Position numbers and translations under genes: made by a program. DNA of 64,000 nucleotides from Struthio camelus (Eukaryota > Chordata > Aves > Struthioniformes > Struthionidae): the NCBI RefSeq assembly GCF_040807025.1, contig NC_090964.1:6937214-7001213 (forward strand). The letters run 5' to 3'. Below are positions 49,801 through 52,800 of this stretch, one piece after another. Positions within the stretch are counted from its first letter, which is position 1; each line of letters opens with the position of its first letter. A model generated the notes under the pieces. It searched no databases, was not told the origin of the DNA, and worked only from the letters and a program-made list of their open reading frames with translations.

Positions 49801-52800
49801 ATCTTACTCAGGCCAGAAAATCCTTGTGGTCAGACACCTTGCAAGGGCAAGTCCAGGTTTCTCAGTACTTCAGTCCCACACTACCCCGCGTCAGACTTGG
49901 TCTGGTTACTGTTTGGACCTGAAGGCAAGCAATTATGTTCCAAAGGGCATTAAACCCGGCTGATCTCTGACTCTAGGGCATGTGTAGCCATCAGAGGGTG
50001 CCAAAAAGCTGGAATTACTTTTTAGCTTTTCTCCTTCTGAAGTAGGGGAGAAAAGTTGTACTGTTTTCTAAATGTATTCAGAGTCTTGCTTTGGAACCCT
50101 CCTAAATCAAAGCAGCTTTTAAAAGCAACAGGAACCAAGTTTCAACCTCTGCCTCCCGCACAAGCTGCACCCCGGCCCACTCTCCCCACCCTCCGAGTAC
50201 GTTCTCGGGGAGGGTAAACTTGCCAAATGCACGGATGTGGTTGCCTACCTGCAGAACGGCACTGCACGCCCTTCCTTTCCCACTGTCGTGCTTGGCTTTT
50301 CTCTAGATTAGGAAGTAGCTTTGTTTCCATGTCTGTCAGTAGCTTTATTCTCTTAAGACCCTGCATTGTTTAGACACTAAGTTCTAGCAGAGAAACCTGC
50401 ACCCTCAGCTGTGCAGCACGGACAGCCCAAGCGCAGGGAAAGGATGGGGGGACAGAACCTGTCTCCACGTTAACCTGCCTTCTGTTCTTACACTGGTCTC
50501 GGCGATCACAGACAAGAAAGACCTTGTAATCTCTCTAGCAATAAGTTTTCATGTTCCATAAGATCCCTCAGGTTAAATCAGCCACCTTACACCAGTGGCT
50601 GCGGTTGGAGGCTCAGTGCATGGCAGACAGCCATGAGCTAGAAACAGCTTCCCATTTTGAGCCATCAGCCCGAACCAGAGTTAGCCAGGAAGTCTCTGTG
50701 GCCTCCCTCCCTCCCCTCCTGTCTTTCATTCCACGTTGTCCAGCTCTCCTAGGAGAGACCCCACAGCAGGGAGAGACCCTGGGAAGGGCCCTGGAGGTGA
50801 GTTTTGGGAACTCAGCATGTGAGCACGCTTGCAGCAGCTCTGGCCACCCACCCCCTCTTGTGGCCAGAGTCACTTGGCCAAAACACTCAGGTGCCAAAGG
50901 GGGCTGCTCAGGGTCAAATAAACCATTAAGTGTAGTACAAGGAACAGTCTGTATCCTAGATACCTTGAAGGTCAGATCAGCATTAGGAGAGGTCTGTCAA
51001 GTTAGGGCTATCTGTAGGCTACAGGGGGGCTCTTTTCCTCCCTACCTCCCAGACTTCATGAAAACATTAGGGAGGGACCAAGCCTGCCCAGCATCAGCAC
51101 TTGTATCGCTCTGTGGCCTGTTTCACCCTGTAGCTTCACACAGCTATGCAGAGAGGAACACTGAACTCTTGTATCCACCTCCGAGGAATTTGGACGCATC
51201 CTTGTACCACAGCCCTTTACCAGCTCTTGAGCAACGTCTTTTCACAACTGTGGGAACTCTTTGCCTCAGCCAACAGCAAGACTCAGTGTGTTTAACTGCA
51301 AGTGGTTTCAAAAGCCAAAGCTGTACTCTCAAGGCAGGCAGAGATTTGCATATACAGCCTGCCAGGTGGACCATATCAGCAAACATACATACATGCCACC
51401 TAGACCAAAAGTGGCACCTACAGAGACGTTGTCGATAGCTTTCTGAGAACAAGCTTTGGGATGCCCTTTGGCACCGTTCTGATACAAAGGAGGTTTCCTC
51501 CCATGGACTCATCCAGTAACTTGCAATTCAACAGCTATGACTCTGGACATGAGACCCTGCAGCTTGTTTAACAGCACTCCAGAACAGGTCTCCAGTACAA
51601 AAGCACCCACATGCCACTGATCTGCAGCATGAACAGGCTTTACTCGCACCAAGGTAAGTTTCTTACAATGGCACCACTAAGCCAGCTATCCCAAAAGGCA
51701 GGAAAAGAGAAAAGCAAAACCAGAACTCCCATCCACAGACTGCTCTGAACATTCATCGGAAGCATCAGCCCACTTGGAGGAGCGATTCGCGCCACAAACC
51801 CAAGCCAAAGCAGCCTCCTGCAAGCTGAGCGAGCTCACGGCAATACTAACCGGGCTGGAGAGCTGGCTGGGGGCAGGCAGCGGCAGGCTGCAGGGCTTTG
51901 CTCGATGTTTCCTGTGCAGCCACAGTGTGAGGAACGTGCAGATGCGAGGAAGTTTAGGGTCCCTCTCCATTCTCCCATCCCGATCAACATCGCACAGCCC
52001 CAGTAACCGCCAGCACCGCGGGCTCCTCAGGAAGCATGGCAGGCTCCTGGGGATAGGGAGGCTCCCACAAGGCTACATGGCCGCCACAAGTTTGAGGTCG
52101 CAGGATGGAGGAGATACAGGTGGTTAAAGCCCAGCTGGCAGATGCGCAGTGAAGACAAGCGACTCAGTCACACAGAGAGGCAGGTTGACGCTCCCACTCC
52201 CCAGCAACAGCGCTTGTGGTTGGGGCTTTTTTTTGGTTTTGTTTAAAAAAAAAAAAAAAAAAGACCTCACAGCTCCTTGTTCACGTTTGGTGTTCCTGGT
52301 TCAGACAAGACACTTTCTGACAAAAACCATGCACTGTCTAGTTTAAACAGCCTACTTCCATCTAGCGTGGCATGAATCTCACGTCAGGCTGTGAGCTTTG
52401 GGGGTACTTCTACAACAGGGAAATATTCTGAGAAGTTTCTTACTCTTTAAAAAGGAAGAGAAAAGCAAACAAAACCTCACACAGAGGTCTGGCACCACTT
52501 AGGAAAGCTGCACATATCTTTGCTCTCATACCTGCCTAGGGATGATGGGTCACCCATGGTGGGATTCAGGGTGCACCAATCCCATGGGAAAGTCCTCTGG
52601 CATCAGTGACCATGCTAGGATATTCATCCAGTTCTGCACTTTAGGAAGCGTGACCTTTGCTTTGTGCTGCACAAGAATCCTGGGCATGGAAGGTGAAGGT
52701 ACCGAAGAGCCACTCTGGGGAATCTCATGCAAGGTATTTTTAAAGGCATTTCTGAAGCGGACGTGTTCTGAATCCACTACTGTTCAGATTTATTGGCTGG

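Follow-up and report, generated by a model that had tools for sequence, protein, structure and literature searches.

The window, a stretch of 64,000 nucleotides from the ostrich Struthio camelus (NC_090964.1), carries RPS6KA1 on its minus strand. The gene was identified as RSK1 by a search of solved structures, in which human RSK1 (2z7q) was the best match with 463.5 bits vs 432.7 for RSK2; three residues at one exon junction of the query had been filled in. The exons encoding both kinase domains were placed by tblastn with a human RSK1 query, and their limits in table 1 are the outer limits of the matches, with exon ends unrefined. Pieces of ARID1A and HMGN2 were also used for synteny and gave no match within 94 kb. 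Upstream of the kinase exons lies an exon that either of two leaders could join, here called the shared exon. The canonical leader begins in exon 1, beyond the window, and the other leader (hereafter leader B) sits in intron 2, downstream of canonical exon 1 and 3 kb before the shared exon. Because the donors of canonical exons 1 and 2 are also in phase 0, the leaders are interchangeable. The MPLAQL...PW... motif of canonical RSK leaders was not found in leader B, and occurs instead at C23:7015038-7015100.

Table 1. Features of the RPS6KA1 locus and the RSK3-type leader exon (window positions unless a contig is named)
Feature	Position	Strand	Basis or remarks
Alternative first coding exon (leader B), with donor 1	51851..51970	minus	40 codons, phase 0; frame and donor score 6.36
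Possible lengthening of leader B through the weaker donor 2, adding 4 codons (VSIA)	51839..51850	minus	donor score 3.62
Putative promoter and 5' UTR	51971..52250	minus	GC and CpG locally raised; TATA[AT]A absent from 500 bases
Hydrophobic and basic core, residues 6-24, modelled as a helix	51899..51955	minus	single-sequence AlphaFold2
Shared exon (canonical exon 3), joinable by either leader	48681..48797	minus	39 codons; acceptor CAG before GGT at 48797
Remaining RPS6KA1 coding exons through the C-terminus, with both kinase domains	37740..47481	minus	tblastn, human RSK1 query
Canonical exon 1, MPLAQLAEPWPNMELVHLDTE	C23:7015038-7015100 (window-equivalent 77887)		strong donor, phase 0, GC-rich sequence
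Canonical exon 2, NGQAAPEEGGNPPSQ	window-equivalent 71348-71304, beyond the window		donor phase 0
RSK3-type leader exon, MEMNMKKFTVRRFFSVYLRKKSRSKSSSLSRFE	C3:88611115-88611213	minus	ATG exon, then gtaaaa, phase-0 donor

Leader B opens with an ATG at 51970 in a strong Kozak context (A at -3, G at +4), and its frame on the minus strand is open for 94 codons, to 51686 including the stop. Donor 1 follows codon 40 (CCG, then gttagt) and, donor scores being approximate, its 6.36 falls within the top 3.5% of sense-strand GTs in 94 kb. Donor 2 follows codon 44 (GCC, then gtgagc) and belongs to the top 13% of the same GTs, while a third phase-0 donor after codon 57 is weaker still. Thus, both an ATG and a phase-0 donor are present. 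The first-pass annotation had described an ATG-initiated minus-strand frame inside an intron of RPS6KA1, with phase 0 to the shared exon kept by either of two donors, and this was borne out: the frame lies in intron 2 of the gene whose best structure match is RSK1, and the exon ends at 51851 and 51839 are both in phase with the acceptor at 48797. The structure by itself is not rare. Nine ATG frames in intron 2, leader B counted, have a phase-0 donor scoring at least 6.0, and three of them also have a strong Kozak context; the other two of these three (63363 and 50330, minus strand) look by eye unlike an RSK leader. What goes beyond chance for leader B is therefore its sequence similarity, not its exon structure. 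A search of its own genome that skipped very common words returned one match for the leader B DNA, and a repeat-derived origin was rejected on this count. Frames beginning with ATG or TTG were also seen on the minus strand upstream of the leader B start (51984-52070) and overlapping it (51835-51990), in other reading frames; should transcription begin above them, translation could be affected.

Leader B was compared with what we take to be the leader of human RSK1 isoform 2 (UniProt Q15418-2), presumably likewise a first exon that opens with ATG and is spliced to this shared exon. Eighteen of 41 columns were identical, and none of 20,000 shuffles did as well. The presumed human leader ranked leader B first among the 3154 segments of the window, with a score of 73 vs 47 for the next. 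By protein similarity to this presumed human sequence, leader B is an exon of the isoform 2 type. The human sequences used were partly checked against the genome, where the RSK3 leader and the canonical leader of RSK1 both led to a single place (82% and 81% identity), in both cases upstream of an RSK shared exon; this check covers those two leaders and not the isoform leader. The human sequence used in the first-pass annotation is not independent of ours. What stands of its claim that an alternative RSK1 leader is conserved outside mammals is that this genome holds a leader resembling the presumed human one.

The presumed human RSK3 leader also ranked leader B first in the window, narrowly (40 vs 35), and therefore the RSK3-type leader of the same genome, on C3, was used as a test. 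The C3 shared exon, which is of the same kind as that of RSK1, follows 73 kb downstream of it. We take the paralogues on C3, C1, and C11 to be RSK3, RSK2, and RSK4 from presumed human sequences; the solved-structure matches for the C3 gene included no chain of RSK3. Leader B and the C3 leader gave an ungapped alignment of 29 residues starting at Met 1, with 10 identical and 17 positive, so that leader B has the Met-anchored similarity of an RSK3-type leader, the RSK3 label of C3 resting on the presumed human query. The score of this pair was 37, vs a shuffle mean of -23 (sd 9.8), and was reached by none of 100,000 shuffles. When shuffling preserved composition within blocks, the score was reached in 0 of 200,000 shuffles with three blocks and in 58 of 200,000 with five; thus, a general pattern of hydrophobic followed by basic residues does not readily explain the likeness. 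Among 1209 candidates, comprising ATG frames with a phase-0 donor on both strands of 264 kb, the two leaders were reciprocal best matches, and the next anchored scores were 20 against the C3 leader and 11 against leader B. The gapped local score was less decisive (42 for the pair, 36 for the next chance frame). Identical bases were about equally frequent at the three codon positions (15, 17, and 14 of 29), and hence a protein-type substitution pattern was not seen for this pair. The presumed human isoform leader was at best marginally similar to the C3 leader (920 of 20,000 shuffles as good). The comparison with the C3 leader is the stronger evidence and does not use the presumed human isoform leader.

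The region upstream of leader B would hold the promoter and 5' untranslated region. From 51751 to 52250, the GC content was 0.58 and the CpG observed/expected ratio 0.52, a mild local rise. TATA[AT]A was absent from the 500 bases upstream, where looser A/T words occurred only at -277 and beyond, and two RUNX-like words were found in the same 500 bases vs about one expected by our own estimate. Elsewhere in intron 2, two stretches were CpG-rich, 59251-60250 (observed/expected up to 0.86) and 60501-62000 (up to 0.73). Both are richer than the region upstream of leader B and, judged by composition, could possibly represent a further promoter or an unannotated transcript. An 18-base purine-rich tandem array of 7.4 copies (62214-62350) and an exact 24-base duplication (62439-62487) were also observed.

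Based on these comparisons, leader B is very probably a genuine and conserved alternative first coding exon of RPS6KA1, located in intron 2, of the RSK3 type, and older than the divergence of RSK1 and RSK3. We infer homology as the cause of its likeness to the RSK3-type leader, and likewise infer its transcription, promoter, protein, and targeting. A coincidental resemblance of an intronic open frame, hydrophobic and basic in the manner of the human and RSK3-type leaders, has to be weighed against this. Intron 2 does contain similar ATG frames, the pair of leaders has no codon-position signal, the best rival in gapped local scoring comes close, and some of the five-block shuffles reach the observed score. 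Chance is nonetheless highly improbable given that no whole shuffle and no three-block shuffle did so, that the two leaders are reciprocal best, and that two presumed human queries both pick leader B among 3154 segments. It could also be supposed that leader B was a first exon in an ancestor and is now untranscribed in this lineage, with which the missing TATA[AT]A word, the only mild CpG rise upstream, and the moderate score of donor 1 would agree. Such a fossil is unlikely to have kept an intact ATG in a strong Kozak context, a stop-free frame, and an in-phase donor scoring 6.36 where that of the RSK3-type leader scores 6.14, and a match of the observed extent to the presumed human leader would not be expected after some 300 million years of neutral drift.

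The exon might instead be a cassette, spliced in after canonical exon 2 and before the shared exon. Two of the 11 AG words in 52150-51901, at 52072 (TAG) and 51964 (GAG), do keep the frame from exon 2. These are, however, weak acceptors, with pyrimidines at 10 and 5 of 20 positions vs 15 of 20 at the shared-exon acceptor, while the upstream CAGs with the best tracts (52134, 14 of 20; 52046, 13 of 20) run into a stop when read on from exon 2. Judged by its acceptors, cassette use appears the less likely use of this exon, and we give it scarcely any weight.

If leader B is a first exon, a transcript beginning just upstream would be translated from 51970 and spliced to 48797 from the exon end at 51851 or, with lower probability, from that at 51839. 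The protein would thereby carry an RSK3-type leader, hydrophobic and basic, in place of the MPLAQL... leader, with the kinase domains unchanged. Since the kinase domains would be the same, the swap would most likely alter where the kinase is located (the nuclear envelope, a scaffold, or a membrane) and when it is produced. In the single-sequence AlphaFold2 model, the block mean pLDDT of leader B was 81 at residues 11-20, with an overall mean of 61 and a pTM of 0.30. Residues K6, L18, K21, and R23 were invariant in an alignment of four leaders, two rows of which were presumed human sequences. No solved structure matched either leader in searches with the RSK1 and C3 queries, the matches shown beginning at residues of at least 39 and 33, respectively.

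The N-terminus of RSK3 is said to be the handle that recruits this kinase to mAKAP-beta in the heart, and residues 1-30 reportedly do the binding to mAKAP-beta (AKAP6). RSK3 is a listed partner of AKAP6/mAKAP, which resides at the nuclear envelope (PMC6815827, PMC8073060), and the expression of peptides that uncouple RSK3 was reported to improve cardiac function (PMC9913689). RSK1 appears as a partner of AKAP1 in a table of PMC6815827, its isoform unnamed there. By analogy, the alternative RSK1 form and RSK3 may share a docking role. More tentatively, and as a scenario that we consider possible rather than probable, an ancestral vertebrate RSK may have had two interchangeable leaders, of which RSK3 kept the anchoring one, RSK2 the MPLAQL one, and RSK1 both. 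The second-start form of RSK1 would then dock on RSK3 scaffolds, such as mAKAP-beta, and be displaced by RSK3-displacing peptides, notably in blood cells and macrophages. If the RSK1 form does have such a handle, homologous to that of RSK3, the isoform-specific roles ascribed to the two kinases would have to be reinterpreted, and it could be tested directly how specific RSK3 uncoupling peptides are.

The other RSK paralogues were scanned for exons of the same kind. At the RSK2-type locus, the 40 kb that run from ahead of exon 1 (C1:136911474) as far as the shared exon contained 187 sense ATG frames of at least 22 amino acids and, among the four best listed, no leader-B-like exon, the best summed score to the two leaders being 3. 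At the RSK4-type locus, where exon 1 was not located, 60 kb contained 310 such frames and, again among the four best listed, none like leader B, with a best summed score of 7. A ranking by either leader, which covered 40 kb at each of these two loci and took frames followed by a phase-0 donor, gave no frame near the 37 of the leader pair. A MPLAQL-type leader for RSK3 was sought in 90 kb, including 16.8 kb upstream of the RSK3-type leader; seven regular-expression matches were set aside by eye as unlike, and genome searches with the RSK1 and RSK2 leaders were too insensitive to exclude such a leader. A degraded copy of the RSK2-type shared exon with a similar intron flank was seen at C1:150868459-150868572 (minus strand), a contig that also carries the RSK2-type gene. 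It is probably a duplicated fragment, several otherwise conserved residues being changed.

The title of Zhao et al. 1995 calls the N-terminal sequence of RSK3 unique. A homology between the RSK1 and RSK3 leaders was not found among the literature matches listed (titles and beginnings of abstracts), and a literature search with the leader peptide gave no match. In mammals, an alternative first exon or start of RPS6KA1 is on record (PMC7822815, PMC8260223) and has been tied to inflammation (PMC8260223); the alternative start is regulated in blood cells and macrophages. In human cells, TSS2 of RPS6KA1 was activated twentyfold on loss of RUNX1/RUNX1T1, with transcript and protein up threefold; TSS2 is linked to leukaemia and was predicted to change N-terminal residues only, and a RUNX1/RUNX1T1 site adjoins it in intron 1 (PMC7822815). 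Repression of the alternative promoter is mentioned in a review (PMC7854360), and RPS6KA1 is one of the genes whose splicing and transcript level differ from one human immune cell type to another (PMC10499523). The excerpts available from these four reports and from PMC9737342 give neither the leader sequence nor a link to RSK3, and those from PMC7822815 and PMC8260223 propose no function for the changed RSK1 N-terminus itself. Alternative RPS6KA1 starts are already known in mammals, and the resemblance to RSK3 seems, among the literature matches listed, to be the part that is new. This resemblance would date the leader before the split of RSK1 and RSK3 and so beyond the bird-mammal split. The first-pass annotation had, provided that the exon is real, placed two RSK1 promoters and two leaders before the latter split; of this, the old age of leader B is supported, because it appears to be homologous to the RSK3-type paralogue leader of this genome.

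Compared with known systems, leader B and the canonical MPLAQL... leader of RSK1 (a leader type found in RSK1/RSK2) would be spliced to one and the same exon, both in phase 0, but leader B lacks that motif, and the canonical leader has its own exon 1 in GC-rich sequence 26 kb upstream. Relative to the presumed human RSK1 isoform 2 leader of 45 residues, leader B has 40 (or 44), with a core one residue shorter and a different Pro/Ser tail. The RUNX1/RUNX1T1 site beside human TSS2 lies in intron 1, whereas leader B lies in intron 2, and the available text of PMC7822815 does not tie TSS2 to this leader. The sister gene RSK4 (RPS6KA6) likewise has alternate first exons, which yield two proteins (PMC9737342), although the 60 kb scanned at the RSK4-type locus held no frame like leader B. 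The RSK3-type leader is more basic (net charge +8, vs +5 over residues 1-30 of leader B) and more amphipathic (moment 0.75 vs 0.45), and has no Pro/Ser tail, whereas leader B has one. Near C3:88611297, the RSK3-type ATG is preceded by a TATAAATA word at -84 and, at -69, by the CCAAT-type word ATTGG, in contrast to the 500 bases without TATA[AT]A above leader B. The donors of the two exons are about equal in strength, and leader B resembles the leader of RSK3 (RPS6KA2) in being a first coding exon with a phase-0 donor and a basic cluster at the same place.
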